A stretch of DNA of 41,464 nucleotides, from positions 1-41,464 of the forward strand of contig CALCKU010000065.1 of the NCBI GenBank assembly GCA_937965735.1, in the 5' to 3' direction. Below the pieces are notes generated by a model, which ran no database searches, had not been told where the DNA came from, and saw nothing but the letters and a program-made list of their open reading frames with translations. Positions 5,706 through 12,287 of this stretch are shown in pieces; the stretch's first letter is position 1; each line of letters begins with the position of its first letter. Both the position numbers and the translations under genes were made by a program. This DNA comes from an uncultured Caulobacterales bacterium. GTDB taxonomy: Bacteria; Pseudomonadota; Alphaproteobacteria; Caulobacterales; Maricaulaceae.

Positions 5706-6026
5706 TTAAAATTTATCTTTGCGAATTACCTGCACATCGGAAACGCTCAAAACGCCAATATGCATACCGATCAGGACTTCAAGTTTTTGCGTGACCGCGT
5801 CTATGAGCGCAACGTCCATAATTGAAATAATCAAGACCATATCGCCACTGGCTGAAATATCTGTTCCGCGCTGCCAGCGCCGTCCATTTCCAGACTCTCC
5901 AAGACTAAAACCTGCCATGCACGGAAGGGCTGAATAGCCCGTCACCCCGCAGCCTTCCAAAATTCGACAAGCGCGTTTAAATGCAGGCTTTTCAATGATA
6001 AGTTCCAAACGTTTTTTATCAAACAT
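5706..6026 (-). CDS. sbtB: PII-like protein, SbtB type (regulator of SbtA)
   Basis: The 106-residue protein has the PII/GlnB-like ferredoxin fold pattern: strand RLELIIEKP, helix FKRACRILEGC, strand VTGYSAL, then a long T-loop (residues about 36-58, AGFSLGESGNGRRWQRGTDI) with Gly/Arg residues, strand MVLIISIMD, helix IDAVTQKLEVLI, and a last strand. It starts 12 bases after sbtA, which is the usual arrangement for SbtB. In cyanobacteria SbtB is a trimer that binds adenine nucleotides (cAMP, AMP, ADP, ATP, c-di-AMP) and plugs SbtA through its T-loop. Unlike the cyanobacterial form, this protein ends at RKDKF and lacks the C-terminal Cys-containing loop (GPEGC type), so redox and apyrase-type control tied to that loop is probably absent. 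Nucleotide binding is inferred. Confidence 0.85.
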   Translation of the reverse strand: MFDKKRLELIIEKPAFKRACRILEGCGVTGYSALPCMAGFSLGESGNGRRWQRGTDISASGDMVLIISIMDVALIDAVTQKLEVLIGMHIGVLSVSDVQVIRKDKF

Positions 6027-6038
6027 TGTCGTCCCTTT

Positions 6039-7037
6039 CTATAAGCCCGTAATCCACTGACCGAGCAAGATATAAAGCGGAATACCCAGAGTCAGATTAA
6101 ACGGAAATGTTACCCCCAAAGACAGCGTTAAATAAATTGATGGTTGCGCCTGCGGAAGCGCTAAGCGCATGGCGGCAGGTACGGCAATATATGACGCAGA
6201 AGCCGCAAGCGTAATCAGGAGCGCCGCATTGCCAGCACTAATGTTCAAAACGTAACAAAAACCGCATGCAATCATAGCCGAGATTAGGGGCATATAAACC
6301 CCAAAGCCAAGAGCCCCCACATTTAAATCTCGCCAACCTTGGCGCAGGCCGCGGCCAGCTGACAAACCCATATCCAGCAAGAAGAGGCATAAAACCCCTT
6401 GAAATGGGTCAACAAAGAAAGGCGATATTTTCTCCATACCAGCCTCACCTGTTATCCACCCAATCAAGAGCGCGCCAACAAGCACAACGACGGACGCATT
6501 GAGCATAACTTCACGCACAAGCTCGCCTCTTTCAGACCCTATTGCCCCCTCGCCAATCGCGCCTTTTTCTTTAAGACCTTTGCGGGCAAGCATGAGCGCA
6601 GACATAATCGCTGGAACTTCCATGACGGCGGCAATCGCTACCATATAGCCAGAGGTCGAAATCCCCGCCAATTGCAGGGCTTGCGTCGCGGCAACGTAAG
6701 TAACGATTGATATGGACCCGTAATGCCCCGCCGTTGCGGCAGCATTGATACGGTCCATACCACTGGTCAAGCGCAAAGCAAGATAGGCCAGAAAAGGCAA
6801 TCCGAAAGACAGAATTAAAGCAATAAGGGCCAAGAAAATAAAATCAGGCCCCAAAACGGCCTTTGACATTTCAACGCCGCCTTTAAGGCCAATCGCCATC
6901 ATTAAATAAAGCGCGAGCCCCTTGGCGAAAGCCTCTGGCACTGTCATTTGTGACCGTAAAAGCGCCGCAATAAGGCCTAAGACAAAAAACAGGACAATCG
7001 GCGATAAGAGTGTCGAGAGCGCTAAATCGAGTGACAT
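6039..7037 (-). CDS. sbtA: Sodium-dependent bicarbonate transporter, SbtA type
   Basis: This 332-residue integral membrane protein has about ten hydrophobic segments arranged as two inverted halves. It matches the Sbt_1 family: LSPIVLFFVLGLIAALLRSQ near the start, the MAIGLKGGVEMS segment (first half), ATAGHYGSISIVTYVAA (substrate/Na+ region with the conserved GHYGSIS), a cytosolic linker with LARKGLKEKG, FQGVLCLFLLDMGLSAGR, and a second-half LAASASYIAVPAAMRLALPQA. SbtA takes up HCO3- with Na+ across the inner membrane at high affinity. The coding region sits five bases after the permease gene and 12 bases before sbtB, so all three probably share an mRNA. It is slightly shorter than cyanobacterial SbtA (about 370 residues), mostly in the central linker. 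Na+ dependence here is by family. Confidence 0.93.
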   Translation of the reverse strand: MSLDLALSTLLSPIVLFFVLGLIAALLRSQMTVPEAFAKGLALYLMMAIGLKGGVEMSKAVLGPDFIFLALIALILSFGLPFLAYLALRLTSGMDRINAAATAGHYGSISIVTYVAATQALQLAGISTSGYMVAIAAVMEVPAIMSALMLARKGLKEKGAIGEGAIGSERGELVREVMLNASVVVLVGALLIGWITGEAGMEKISPFFVDPFQGVLCLFLLDMGLSAGRGLRQGWRDLNVGALGFGVYMPLISAMIACGFCYVLNISAGNAALLITLAASASYIAVPAAMRLALPQAQPSIYLTLSLGVTFPFNLTLGIPLYILLGQWITGL

Positions 7038-7042
7038 TCAGA

Positions 7043-9127
7043 CTACTTTTTATTCATGCGTTGAAGTTTCACCAAATCATCGGGTTCGCCAATAATCGCG
7101 ACCCCGTCCCCTGAACTTAAGATCGTCTCGGGTGTTGCCGCCATAACCATACCATTGCGTTCGATTAATGCAATTAAACACGAATCCGCAATTTCGACCT
7201 CTGAAATCGCTTTGCCGACTTGACACGCCAATACTGGGAATGAAGAAACAGGCCCATGCAGGAAATGATCGTCCCGCATGAGGACTTCATTCATATCTTT
7301 ATCTGTGTTTGCAGACAACCAACGGGTCTCAAAATGATCGCTTTGCACGACCTCGGCCAAATGCCCGGCGAGGCGTAAATCAAGCCCTACAGGTTTTTTC
7401 GGAGTTAATAGGAACATCAATGTGTGAGCGTTTTCCAAATTTAGAACATCTAGCTTGGCTTGCGGCCCAAAACGCAGGACAAAAAGCTCGGGCTGTTTCA
7501 CCGAATCCGCGCTCTGATAAGCAATATAAACGCCGTTATTAATGGGTCGTAATTGAAGTTTATCTTTTGAAAAACAGGTTTCAATCACATCGGATTCAAA
7601 TTGAAAATCTGCTTCTGCACGCTCTGTCATAATGCTGTGCAATTGCCCAAGATCATAGTGTCCATAGCGAAAATCCATCATAGCACTGCGTGCAATCACA
7701 GCCTCATAAGAGAGGTTCTCAGCTTGTGTACGGTCGTGAATAATGGTCATCAGTTCGCGCTCTAGCCCTTCATAACGTTGCTGACCCAAACGCTCATGCA
7801 CGTGGAAAATTGCGCCGCGGCGCTCTGTCCGCTTTGACCCGTAAAAATGATACCACAAGACACAACCAATCGTGACCATGCCTGTAAAAGCAATGGCGAG
7901 AATTCCCATTTCAATAATGAGCCAAAACGAGATCAGAATACCCGTAATCTGTAACCATGGGTAGAAAGGCGCTTTAAATCCGGGTTGATAGCTATCAATA
8001 CGGGATTCGCGCATCACAATAACCGCGACACAAATGAGACCAAAAAGAAGAAGTTGAAATGCAGATGCAAGCTTGGCCACAGATGCAACATCAAATAAGA
8101 CCAGCACAGAAATCATGGCCAAGACTGTGACAATGATAGAAGTCGTCGGCGTACCATGTTTACCGATTTCAGAGAGACGGTTTGGCACAAGTTTGTCTTT
8201 AGCCATAGCATAGGGATAACGCGAAGCCGACATAATGCCTGCATTCCCTGTTGAAGCAAAGGCGGCGATTGCGGCCACGACAATCAAAAAAACGCCGATA
8301 CCAAAAGGCCAATGCCCGAGGAAGACCCGTCCCGCATCCGCAATAGGGGTTAAACTGTCATAGAGGGCTTGAGGTTCGAGTAATTTAATTAAGATCAACG
8401 TACCGAATGTATAGATTATCGTTGCCGTAATCAGAGACAATGTCATGCCCAGCGGTATATTACGGTCAGGATTTTGAACTTCTTCTGCGACACTCGCAAC
8501 CTTAGTCAGGCCCGCATAAGAGACAAAGACCAAGCCTATCGTCGAGACAAACCCAATCAAGCCAGATTTAAAAAATTTGCCATGATCATCCTCAGGGCGG
8601 AACGCTTCGACCCAGCCAGTCTCTTTAAATCCCAATAAGCAAAAGCCGATTAAAATAATAACCAAAGTCGTGACGAGAATCCGCTGAAGCAAAGTCGTTT
8701 CTTTAGCCCCAAATATATTGATGACGCCAAAGGCTATCGTTAGTAATATCGCTGTAATCGTGAAGGGTAAGTCTAGGTAAATCCCTAAATATGCGCCCAT
8801 ACCAACAAGCGCAAATGCACTTTTAAAGACGACGGCAATCCATGAACCTAATCCGCCAATGGTTCCCATAAGCGGCCCCATGGCGCGGTCGAGGAAATAA
8901 TATGTCCCGCCCGCTTTCGGCATAGCGGTTGACAATTCGGCCATGCAATACATGGCAGGTAAAATCAAAAACCCAGCTAAAAAATAAGCGAGGTAAACAG
9001 AATTACCTGTGTAGGAGGCCGCAATACCTGGCAGAAGAAACAAGCCCGAGCTGAACATTGCCCCTGTTGACATGGCATAAACATCAAACAGGGTCAGGTT
9101 CTTTTTTAATGAATTCGTATCGCTCAT
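7043..9127 (-). CDS. APC-superfamily permease fused to EIIA-like and RCK_C (TrkA-C) domains
   Basis: The first about 425 of 694 residues form 12 membrane segments of the amino acid-polyamine-organocation (APC) type, with the family signature SSGLFLLPG in TM1, a SYAGLTKVASVAEEVQNPDR loop region, and ASTGNAGIMSASRYPYAMA. A long cytosolic tail follows. Residues about 475-600 resemble a PTS EIIA type-2 fold (NGVYIAY in place of NGIAIPH), but the phosphorylated His is Tyr537, so it cannot act as a phosphocarrier. Residues about 625-690 resemble an RCK_C/TrkA-C ligand-binding domain (SEVEIADSCLIALIERNGMVMAATPETILSSGDGVAIIG). The gene heads the sbtA-sbtB operon (five-base gap to sbtA), so it may act in or sense inorganic-carbon or Na+/osmotic state. 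The substrate is unknown; an amino-acid or cation-coupled transporter is equally possible. Confidence 0.85.
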   Translation of the reverse strand: MSDTNSLKKNLTLFDVYAMSTGAMFSSGLFLLPGIAASYTGNSVYLAYFLAGFLILPAMYCMAELSTAMPKAGGTYYFLDRAMGPLMGTIGGLGSWIAVVFKSAFALVGMGAYLGIYLDLPFTITAILLTIAFGVINIFGAKETTLLQRILVTTLVIILIGFCLLGFKETGWVEAFRPEDDHGKFFKSGLIGFVSTIGLVFVSYAGLTKVASVAEEVQNPDRNIPLGMTLSLITATIIYTFGTLILIKLLEPQALYDSLTPIADAGRVFLGHWPFGIGVFLIVVAAIAAFASTGNAGIMSASRYPYAMAKDKLVPNRLSEIGKHGTPTTSIIVTVLAMISVLVLFDVASVAKLASAFQLLLFGLICVAVIVMRESRIDSYQPGFKAPFYPWLQITGILISFWLIIEMGILAIAFTGMVTIGCVLWYHFYGSKRTERRGAIFHVHERLGQQRYEGLERELMTIIHDRTQAENLSYEAVIARSAMMDFRYGHYDLGQLHSIMTERAEADFQFESDVIETCFSKDKLQLRPINNGVYIAYQSADSVKQPELFVLRFGPQAKLDVLNLENAHTLMFLLTPKKPVGLDLRLAGHLAEVVQSDHFETRWLSANTDKDMNEVLMRDDHFLHGPVSSFPVLACQVGKAISEVEIADSCLIALIERNGMVMAATPETILSSGDGVAIIGEPDDLVKLQRMNKK

Positions 9128-9245: not shown

Positions 9246-10481
9246 TTAGGCTTTCACGGGATCCGTATCGAGTGTTTTAGAGTCGGACTTTTGTCCAACG
9301 TGACTCTCAATATTTTTTGAACAAAAATATCTGAGCATTACAAATCCCATTACACCCGATGCAATTGACCCCATTAACACACCCAAACGAACAGAGTTGA
9401 GCATTGCGTCGCCTTCAAAGGCAAGCGTTCCGATAAAGAGACTCATCGTAAAGCCGACACCGGTTAGGCAGGCGACCCCGTAAACTTGGCACCAATTCGT
9501 GTCCTCTGGTAACTTGGCAAAGCCAAGCTTAACAGCGAGCCATGCGAGTGAGAACACACCCAATTGCTTACCTATAAACAGGCCGAGCGCAATACCGAGA
9601 GGTAGCGGCGCTAAAAGATCTGCAAGGCTAATCCCTTTGAGCGACACACCGGCATTAGCAAAGGCAAAAAGCGGCAATATAAGGAACGCAACCCATACAT
9701 GCAAACCATGTTCTGCGCGGTGCAGAGGTGAGCTTTCATGTGGGTTCTTGGCTTTCAGCGGTATCGCAAGCGCGGTTACAACACCCGCAAGCGTGGCATG
9801 AACACCTGACTTTAACACACAGGCCCAGACGAAGACTCCGATCAACGCATAGGGCGTGATGCGCATGACGCCCATACGATTGAGCGCAAACAAGGCCATG
9901 GTTCCAACACCGCCCCATCCAAGCGCAACGAGTGAGAGGTCTTGTGTGTAAAAAATGGCAATGATAATAATCGCTGCAAGATCATCAATAATTGCAACCG
10001 CAAGCAATAATATCTTGAGAGAAACTGGCACACGCGAACCGACAAGTGCCAAGACGCCGAGCGCAAACGCAATATCCGTTGCCGCTGGGATTGCCCAGCC
10101 CTGTATCGCGACCGGGTCTGTCCAATTCAGGAAGGCGTATATCCCCGCAGGTGCAAGAATACCGCCAAGCGCTGCGAATAATGGTAAGGCCGCTTTGTCA
10201 AAACTTGAAAGCTCGCCTTCGAAAACCTCATTTTTGATTTCTAACCCGACAAGGAAAAAGAAGATCGCCATTAAGCCATCATTAATCCAAAGTAAGAGCG
10301 GTTTAGCGATTTCAAAACTGCCAAATTGAATTTCAACAGGCGTCGATAAAAAGCCCGAATACAGGCCCGACAGCGGTGAATTATTGGCGATCAACGCAAA
10401 CAAGGCAACGAACATGAGCACGAAGCCCGCAGACGTTTCAAGTCTTAGAAAATCCTGAATTTTATTAACAATACGCGGCAT
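9246..10481 (-). CDS. nhaA: Na+/H+ antiporter NhaA
   Basis: NhaA exports Na+ in exchange for H+ across the inner membrane and controls pH and salt. The 411-residue protein shows the family hallmarks: RLETSAGFVLMFVALFALI in TM1, LWINDGLMAIFFFLVGLEIK, the discontinuous helix IPAATDIAFALGV with Asp136 (equivalent to Asp133 of E. coli), and the transport-site pair AVAIIDDLAA with Asp166 and Asp167 (equivalent to Asp163/Asp164). A hydrophilic C-terminal tail ends in DTDPVKA. The gene lies 118 bases upstream of the permease-sbtA-sbtB operon on the same strand. As SbtA uses inward Na+, NhaA could restore the gradient. This link is inferred from position; NhaA is also common as a stand-alone gene. 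Confidence 0.95.
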   Translation of the reverse strand: MPRIVNKIQDFLRLETSAGFVLMFVALFALIANNSPLSGLYSGFLSTPVEIQFGSFEIAKPLLLWINDGLMAIFFFLVGLEIKNEVFEGELSSFDKAALPLFAALGGILAPAGIYAFLNWTDPVAIQGWAIPAATDIAFALGVLALVGSRVPVSLKILLLAVAIIDDLAAIIIIAIFYTQDLSLVALGWGGVGTMALFALNRMGVMRITPYALIGVFVWACVLKSGVHATLAGVVTALAIPLKAKNPHESSPLHRAEHGLHVWVAFLILPLFAFANAGVSLKGISLADLLAPLPLGIALGLFIGKQLGVFSLAWLAVKLGFAKLPEDTNWCQVYGVACLTGVGFTMSLFIGTLAFEGDAMLNSVRLGVLMGSIASGVMGFVMLRYFCSKNIESHVGQKSDSKTLDTDPVKA

Positions 10482-10570
10482 TAATGTGAGTTTCCATAAA
10501 TTAGTGAACCCTGCCCTATAGACAGAGTTCCAGAGTGATAAAGATTATATAATTAAAATCGGTTAACGTA

Positions 10571-10873
10571 TTAAGACGTTGGCAACGTCATCCGCAATTT
10601 AATGAGTGACAATGCTTTAGGATGCGGTGGCATGGCCCGCCCGCCCATTGTTGTCAGACGTGCGATTGCATCATTCATGGTTTTGTGAACCAAATTATGA
10701 TCTTCGTTAAAACGCTTTACAGCGACAGTCAGTTCTTCAATTGCAGCCTCTATATTACGTTCATTTAAATACGTTTCCGCATTGCCTATGTGCCGTTCAA
10801 TATGGCTTCCAATATTTTCCATGTCCATCTTTTCGTTCTTTGAATGCTTTTCAATTGTGTGTGTTGTCATCAT
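10571..10873 (-). CDS. Small hypothetical helical protein (100 aa)
   Basis: I do not recognise this 100-residue protein. It begins with a His/Lys-rich polar segment (HTIEKHSKNEKMDMEN) and continues as a predicted helical hairpin, with a first helix around HIERHIGNAETYLNERNIEAA and a second around EELTVAVKRFNEDHNLVHKTMNDAIARL, then a Pro/Gly turn and a basic tail. Alternating charged and hydrophobic residues suggest a helical bundle or oligomerisation domain. Its ATG overlaps the TGA stop of an upstream 30-codon membrane peptide (ATGATG/TGA arrangement), which indicates translational coupling. It is the last gene of a three-gene operon divergent from the OxyR-like regulator. Function is unknown. 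Confidence 0.65.
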   Translation of the reverse strand: MMTTHTIEKHSKNEKMDMENIGSHIERHIGNAETYLNERNIEAAIEELTVAVKRFNEDHNLVHKTMNDAIARLTTMGGRAMPPHPKALSLIKLRMTLPTS

Positions 10874-10962
10874 ATTTCTGCCGTCATACCAATGGTTAGA
10901 ATGAGAAAGACCAGTGTTAGCTCGGCCTTCATTTTTTGAAAAAATTGGGTCACTTTTGTCAT
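10870..10962 (-). CDS. 30-residue single-span membrane peptide
   Basis: An unusually short frame starts at ATG 10962 and ends in TGA at 10870-10872. The peptide has an N-terminal basic amphipathic part (MTKVTQFFQKMKAE) and a hydrophobic helix (LTLVFLILTIGMTAEI), so it should sit in the inner membrane. A purine-rich AAGAGAAAG stretch lies 4-12 bases before the ATG and can serve as ribosome binding site. The TGA overlaps the next gene's ATG, giving a four-base ATGA junction typical of coupled translation. The gene is too short for usual gene callers. It could instead be a leader peptide whose translation controls the downstream gene. Confidence 0.6.
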   Translation of the reverse strand: MTKVTQFFQKMKAELTLVFLILTIGMTAEI

Positions 10963-11044
10963 AATGGTCTTTCTCTTAAAATGTTACGTGCGTTAAATTC
11001 AACGAGACTTAACGATCAAGTCGAAATTTGGATCGGGTTGCGCC

Positions 11045-11275
11045 CTAGAACCAAGTCGAGCGGGGCGTTGAACCCGACTGCATAGCCAATCGTCTGGCCC
11101 GGCGACGGCGCATAATTGCACTCGTTGAAGCCTCATTATCTTCTGATCGCTCATTTGAGAGAGTATTTTGAATATAGGCTGGCTGCGGTGCTTGGAAACC
11201 GCGGTTTAGAAATTCACGGCTCAAGAAATTTGTAAGCTTCTGTGGCACATTTTGACTTTGAGTAACGCGAAACAT
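11045..11275 (-). CDS. Small basic hypothetical protein (76 aa)
   Basis: The 76-residue protein has no domain I recognise. It starts MFRVTQSQNVPQKLTNFLSRE, has a polar middle rich in Asn/Ser/Glu and carries an Arg cluster (IMRRRRARRLAM, residues about 54-65) that could bind nucleic acid or membranes. Support for translation is strong: AAGGAG lies six bases before the ATG (plus-strand complement CTCCTT 11282-11287). It is the first gene of the operon that faces away from the OxyR-like regulator, and shares that regulator's operator region. The next gene (30-residue peptide) begins 82 bases downstream. A role in stress response is a guess from position only. Confidence 0.6.
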   Translation of the reverse strand: MFRVTQSQNVPQKLTNFLSREFLNRGFQAPQPAYIQNTLSNERSEDNEASTSAIMRRRRARRLAMQSGSTPRSTWF

Positions 11276-11332
11276 TTTTTTCTCCTTTTGTTAACGCACT
11301 CTCTCTATAGAAAATTTTATTGCATAATTAAA

Positions 11333-11369
11333 ATATAAAGATACTATCGACGTCATAGCTTTTAATTAT
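11333..11369 (+). promoter_or_regulatory. OxyR-type tandem operator upstream of the oxyR-like gene
   Basis: The bases read ATAT-N7-CTAT-N7-ATAG-N7-TTAT with exact seven-base spacing: 11333-11336, 11344-11347, 11355-11358 and 11366-11369. The E. coli OxyR consensus is ATAG-N7-CTAT-N7-ATAG-N7-CTAT, so 14 of 16 core bases match. It lies 13 bases upstream of the ATG at 11382, in the region shared with the divergent small-gene operon, which is the typical place for LysR autoregulation. Confidence 0.7.
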
Positions 11370-11381
11370 ATCAGAGTTGCC

Positions 11382-12287
11382 ATGAAACCGAGTCTACGTC
11401 AGTTACAATATCTTGTTGCCATAGCCGAAACGGGAACCATGAGTGAGGCCGCCAAGCGTACCTTTGTCAGCCAACCGAGCCTGTCTATGCAAATTAAAGA
11501 TATGGAAGCCCAGCTCGGCGCTGCCCTTGTTGAACGCGGACGTTTAGGCGCAGTATTAACGCCGCTCGGCGTAGAAGCCGTTCGGCGCGCCCGACATATT
11601 TTACGCCAAGTGGAAGATTTAAAAGTACTGGCAAGTGAAGCCAAAGGAACGCTTGCTGGCCGCGTGCGCCTTGGCGTTTTACCAACAGTCGGCCCGTATC
11701 TTTTGCCCCGCGCAACCCGCCGATTACACCAAGAATATCCCGCCTTGCGCTTAACCGTTCACGAGGAGCGCACAGTTGATCTTGAGGAACATTTATCAGA
11801 CGGTCGTTTTGACGTCATTATTTCAACACCAGAAGACCATCCTGGTACGAAGTCTCATTCGATTGTACAGGAAAATATTTATATTTGCGTTGCGCCCGAT
11901 GACCCCCTCGCGCTTGAAACAGGGCCTGTCCACATGAAAGCGCTCAAAGGCCGCGAGTTTTTAACGCTGGGGCATGGGCATAAATTTGCCATTGTCGTTA
12001 AAAACCTTGCGAGTATTGCTGGTGCGAGTACAAGCGGCACATATGAAGGCACCTCGCTTGATGCCATTCGTCAAATGGCTTCCATGGGTGAGAGCATTGC
12101 CGTGCTACCCAGTTTATACGCCATATCGGAAGCCAAGCGCGATCCGCTCTTAATTGTTCGCCCTATTCAGCATGCCAAAGCACAAAGAGAAATTGCCTTA
12201 ATGTGGCGCGATAGCTCCCCTTTAGCAGAAAAATTTGATACGATTGGCGCAGTTTTTGAAGATGTCGCAAAAGAAATTATGAAATAG
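11382..12287 (+). CDS. OxyR-like LysR regulator lacking the redox cysteines
   Basis: This is a LysR-type regulator of OxyR length (301 residues). The N-terminal winged HTH spans about residues 3-62 (TMSEAAKRTFVSQPSLSMQIKDME). The effector domain has the OxyR signature GVLPTVGPYLLPRATRRLHQEYP with Thr102. In OxyR, peroxide oxidises Cys199 to a disulfide with Cys208. An ungapped alignment by eye of GREFLTLGHGHKFAIVVKNLA to the OxyR segment (LLMLEDGHCLRDQAMGFC) puts Lys201 and Ala210 at those positions. The only cysteine is Cys169. It should therefore not sense peroxide by the disulfide mechanism, though it retains the fold and probably the DNA specificity: OxyR-type operators occur at its own promoter and at katG. 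It diverges from a three-gene small-protein operon. It may respond to another ligand or act constitutively. Confidence 0.85.
   Translation: MKPSLRQLQYLVAIAETGTMSEAAKRTFVSQPSLSMQIKDMEAQLGAALVERGRLGAVLTPLGVEAVRRARHILRQVEDLKVLASEAKGTLAGRVRLGVLPTVGPYLLPRATRRLHQEYPALRLTVHEERTVDLEEHLSDGRFDVIISTPEDHPGTKSHSIVQENIYICVAPDDPLALETGPVHMKALKGREFLTLGHGHKFAIVVKNLASIAGASTSGTYEGTSLDAIRQMASMGESIAVLPSLYAISEAKRDPLLIVRPIQHAKAQREIALMWRDSSPLAEKFDTIGAVFEDVAKEIMK

Follow-up and report, generated by a model that had tools for sequence, protein, structure and literature searches.

The window, the whole 41,464-nucleotide stretch of DNA analysed here, encodes a predicted 30-residue single-span membrane peptide that belongs to no described family, and comparison with related genomes indicates that its open reading frame is a genuine gene under strong purifying selection. 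The peptide (MTKVTQFFQKMKAELTLVFLILTIGMTAEI; 10870-10962, minus strand) is encoded in an operon with several transporters, and across genomes it tracks the operon's APC/CAT-type permease better than it tracks nhaA or sbt. We put at about even odds (probability roughly 0.5) the reading that the peptide is an MgtS-like accessory or stabilising partner of this permease.

On one side of the peptide gene lie the gene for a 76-residue basic protein (11045-11275, minus strand) and a divergent LysR regulator gene (11382-12287, plus strand), bearing out the earlier suggestion that the peptide lies beside a regulator. On the other side, all on the minus strand, are genes for a 100-residue helical protein (10571-10873), the Na+/H+ antiporter NhaA (9246-10481; Pfam E=4e-148), an APC/CAT-type permease with a TrkA_C domain (7043-9127; Pfam, with GkApcT as its nearest bacterial relative in the PDB), an SbtA-like Na+-dependent bicarbonate transporter (6039-7037) that carries the Sbt_1 domain (Pfam E=7e-108) and matches SbtA in the PDB, and a PII-like protein (5706-6026; Pfam P-II E=1e-6). 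The PII-like gene adjoins the SbtA-like gene, and its product, a weak relative of P-II proteins in PDB entry 5d4n, is a possible SbtB outside cyanobacteria. All three small open reading frames were found on the minus strand where the sequence-only reading had placed them, as were the AAGGAG site of the basic gene (11282-11287, 6 bases before its first ATG) and the ATGA at 10870-10873 shared by the TGA of the peptide and the ATG of the helical protein. That reading had recognised no domain in the three proteins, and all of them fall below family thresholds in Pfam, NCBIfam, PHROGs and PADLOC. Between nhaA and the helical gene, a weak hairpin of terminator type (10506-10530) did not rise above shuffled sequences, and a search of the locus for known RNA elements returned none.

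A first profile, built from five peptides, matched 18 of 137 family genomes at E <= 8e-4, with the next match at only 0.05. With a profile built from 18 peptides, the 30-codon frame, on whose conservation the sequence-only reading had staked its claim, was found to be kept in 23 of the 137 genomes. A usable start codon is present in 22 of these, G115 being the exception, and the same peptide already lay between the LysR gene and nhaA in the first relatives found via the helical protein. In one genome (G126; L089, about 2339-2420) the peptide tail follows directly on the first part of the basic protein, MFRLNTALTQIELSLIGLVLFLGASA, which we read as a natural fusion by deletion. Compared with its nearest relative, in G019, the peptide has accumulated 14 synonymous changes and one non-synonymous change (pN/pS 0.02); in an 18-codon core, 15 nucleotide differences, 12 of them in third positions, alter one residue. 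When 15 random changes were simulated in this core, at least four residues were altered in all 20,000 trials. Other peptide pairs gave pN/pS values of 0.16-0.53, and shifted frames mostly gave 1 or more. We regard the gene as genuine because it recurs in 23 genomes and shows a protein-type substitution pattern, and the peptide, both conserved and selected, stands on firmer ground than had been claimed for it.

Across relatives the peptide is 28-31 residues long, with the consensus KMKAELTL followed by a hydrophobic tail. Its first half holds 3-5 basic residues, and the glutamate of the K-A-E-L motif is invariant in 18 of 18 aligned sequences. The tail measures 14 residues in most sequences and 15-16 in the rest, and the protein stops there. 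By the positive-inside rule the N-terminus would be cytoplasmic, and because the tail is short for a full bilayer span, the Lys/Glu pair may sit at the membrane surface. Beyond the family, nothing credible appeared in the rest of 398 order genomes or in 381 class genomes, and among named species the exact peptide pattern occurs in three records, two from Hellea and one from Caulobacterales. The peptide family has no match in Pfam, NCBIfam, PHROGs, PADLOC or the PDB, and we found no description of it in the literature searched.

The basic and helical proteins appear to be separate, optional parts beside the peptide. Alignment of 20 basic proteins, some from genomes that lack the peptide, gives the type MFRxxQ...RRRRxRR...[RK][ST][ST]WF, and we take this arginine-rich protein to be a second new small family, tied to the LysR gene. 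The G050 locus (L098:4295-4900) has two intact tandem copies of the basic gene and a broken third beside the LysR gene, with no transporter. The helical protein, with relatives in about 10 genomes, is predicted to form three helices (mean pLDDT 75 in single-chain structure prediction), and no match in a fold search had an E-value below 0.3. Its similarity to the Pfam family DUF4404 (E=0.002, 19.1 bits), the best family hit for any of the three small proteins, is below the gathering cut-off of 27, and its longer relatives do not match that family. About half of the peptide loci lack the helical gene (missing in G030, G012, G103, G101, G122, G116, G036 and others, with a truncated frame in G054), and at loci without it the peptide is directly upstream of nhaA. 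The small-protein cluster and its unlisted peptide are real, as had been proposed, but we rejected the three genes as a conserved unit, given that the helical gene is often missing and that G026 and G050 carry the basic gene but no peptide.

The two frames meet in different ways among the relatives. In G057, G119, G111 and G112 the helical frame has its start far upstream and encloses the peptide, which is read in another frame, an arrangement that probably also holds in G125 and G019. Loci with such nesting include L002:1486-1956, L009:1246-1836, L022 and L030, and five genomes share (Q)RWE(D/N)EGGA as the second-frame sequence. The pN/pS of the helical frame is 0.30-0.60 after the overlap compared with 0.46-1.36 before or within it, which places its strongest constraint past the overlap. 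The ATGA overlap, for which conservation had been suggested as a check, was seen only in the window and in G001, and translational coupling through it was rejected as the key feature on that ground. Both the helical protein and the ATGA overlap look incidental.

OxyR is the closest match to the LysR regulator in NCBIfam and PDB comparisons, but the redox cysteines (199 and 208 in E. coli OxyR) are absent, the aligned stretch reading LGHGHKFAIVVKNL. In the intergenic region between the LysR and basic genes lies a putative OxyR-type double operator (11320-11369, minus strand), which has the ATAG-N7-CTAT sequence of such operators and, as ATAG-N7-CTAT-N7-ATAG, is conserved across most of the 26 loci that were aligned, peptide-free ones among them. 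In G008 and G120 a relative of the LysR gene stands by genes for carbonic anhydrase and a SulP transporter. Because the regulator faces the SbtA-like and PII-like genes and has relatives near carbonic anhydrase and SulP genes, we infer that the operon serves Na+/bicarbonate homeostasis and is controlled by a non-redox OxyR relative, which may itself respond to bicarbonate or Na+.

A transporter scan of the same 137 family genomes found the permease in 28, nhaA in 33 and sbt in 54. All 23 peptide genomes hold the permease, compared with 20 that hold nhaA and 15 that hold sbt. The peptide is present in 20 of 21 genomes with both nhaA and the permease and in none of the 12 with nhaA and no permease; the Fisher p for this contrast is about 4e-8, a value that overstates the evidence, as the genomes are related and the counts non-independent. 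G026 has kept the LysR, basic and helical proteins and an NhaA that is 80% identical, while permease and peptide are both gone. Conversely, G118 and G121 have the LysR gene, the basic protein, the peptide and an adjacent permease, and nhaA is absent. Downstream of the basic and peptide genes in G032 lies an unrelated gene in convergent orientation, with the permease on a different contig; since no transporter follows the peptide gene there, its product would act in trans. The NhaA tree is consistent with a single gain and with losses in G026, G042 and G024, of which two coincide with loss of the permease, and counter-examples to the pairing are G024 and G008, which have the permease without the peptide. 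The sequence-only reading was well directed in linking the peptide to a transporter, and of the candidates it named (NhaA, SbtA or the permease) the comparative evidence favours the APC permease; SbtA makes a weak partner, with sbt in 15 of the 23 peptide genomes.

Single-span subunits of about 30 residues are familiar from other membrane complexes: KdpF and CydX are accessory subunits of KdpFABC and cytochrome bd and are encoded in the operons of those complexes. The peptide resembles them in size, predicted single span and accessory-type operon position, but its operon contains no Kdp or cytochrome bd genes, and a scan of 18 peptides against KdpF, CydX and other small subunits in Pfam found no relevant family. 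To our knowledge, a bacterial one-helix subunit on an SLC7-like transporter is known only from the crystal of MgtS with GkApcT. The best bacterial PDB matches of the permease are these GkApcT entries, 5oqt and 6f34, which include 31-residue E. coli MgtS (YneM) as a second protein. In the heterodimer the N-terminus of MgtS is cytoplasmic and the peptide packs on TM5, and GkApcT from a strain lacking MgtS had lower substrate uptake and lost its stabilisation by cholesterol hemisuccinate (PMC5803215).

Like MgtS, the peptide has about 30 residues, one hydrophobic helix, an N-terminus that would be cytoplasmic and a link to an APC/CAT permease. Unlike MgtS, it is encoded within the transporter operon, carries a KAEL motif with an invariant glutamate and, among the genomes searched, is confined to a single bacterial family. 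Sequence homology between the two was not detected (hhalign probability 15%), and the peptide profile A5 did not recover the 5oqt and 6f34 chains from the PDB at E up to 10; because no sequence relation is detectable, MgtS serves here as an argument on possible mechanism and not on membership. By such a mechanism the peptide, whose gene heads the LysR-linked operon, would insert as a single span with its N-terminus inside. Its hydrophobic tail would pack on the transport domain of the permease, as MgtS does on TM5 of GkApcT, with the basic N-terminal half and the invariant glutamate placed at the cytoplasmic face. Bound in this way, it would stabilise or tune the permease when Na+/bicarbonate conditions call the operon into use.

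Gene order could suggest a different client, since nhaA and not the permease is the transporter gene immediately downstream of the peptide in 20 of the 23 peptide genomes. We nevertheless think a role for the peptide as a regulator or small subunit of NhaA unlikely, because the 12 genomes with nhaA and no permease all lack the peptide while G118 and G121 retain it with the permease after nhaA has gone, and the same genomes weaken NhaA as an obligate partner. The permease also need not be the sole client, and the peptide could act on another membrane protein or serve as an adaptor that targets an operon transporter to FtsH or shields it from the protease. A review of peptides of 28-31 residues by which transporters are inhibited, stabilised or marked covers MgtR (30 aa) and MgtU (28 aa) of Salmonella, membrane peptides of the same size class that are made from one operon with their transporter, MgtB (PMC10710835). 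Their transporter is a P-type ATPase, unlike the permease here, and in Pfam the peptide shows no sequence relation to either, so that an adaptor role or another target seems improbable to us as well.

Two further explanations would deny the product a role. A short frame at the 5' end of an operon, overlapping the next gene in the window and nested in the helical gene in several relatives, has the look of a leader or coupling frame whose translation, rather than its product, controls the downstream genes; yet conservation is at the level of residues and not nucleotides, no known RNA element was found, and in G032 no transporter gene follows, all of which makes a leader very improbable. The frame is also so short, and so often overlapped by a larger one among its relatives, that chance might be invoked, but its presence in 23 genomes and the single residue changed among mostly third-position differences leave chance a negligible probability, and we consider it excluded by the substitution pattern.

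Partnership with the APC permease is the reading we prefer, and a broader proposal may tentatively be built on it, although we think it somewhat less probable than not: that the peptides form an undescribed family of single-helix subunits encoded together with prokaryotic APC/CAT permeases. The family would be the native equivalent of the GkApcT-MgtS pair and a bacterial analogue of the heavy subunit, likewise single-span, of human SLC7 transporters; it would have been acquired by a single bacterial lineage, and in some species its gene is nested within another in a different frame. Annotation mostly misses bacterial small membrane proteins, and the peptide offers a good evolutionary case with a specific partner candidate. 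Where its gene overlaps the helical gene, as in some species, it also gives a helpful example of a single DNA segment used in two frames. Should the peptide bind the APC permease, an SLC7-like bacterial transporter would have a native one-helix subunit, and a small-peptide control point would lie within a Na+/bicarbonate operon.
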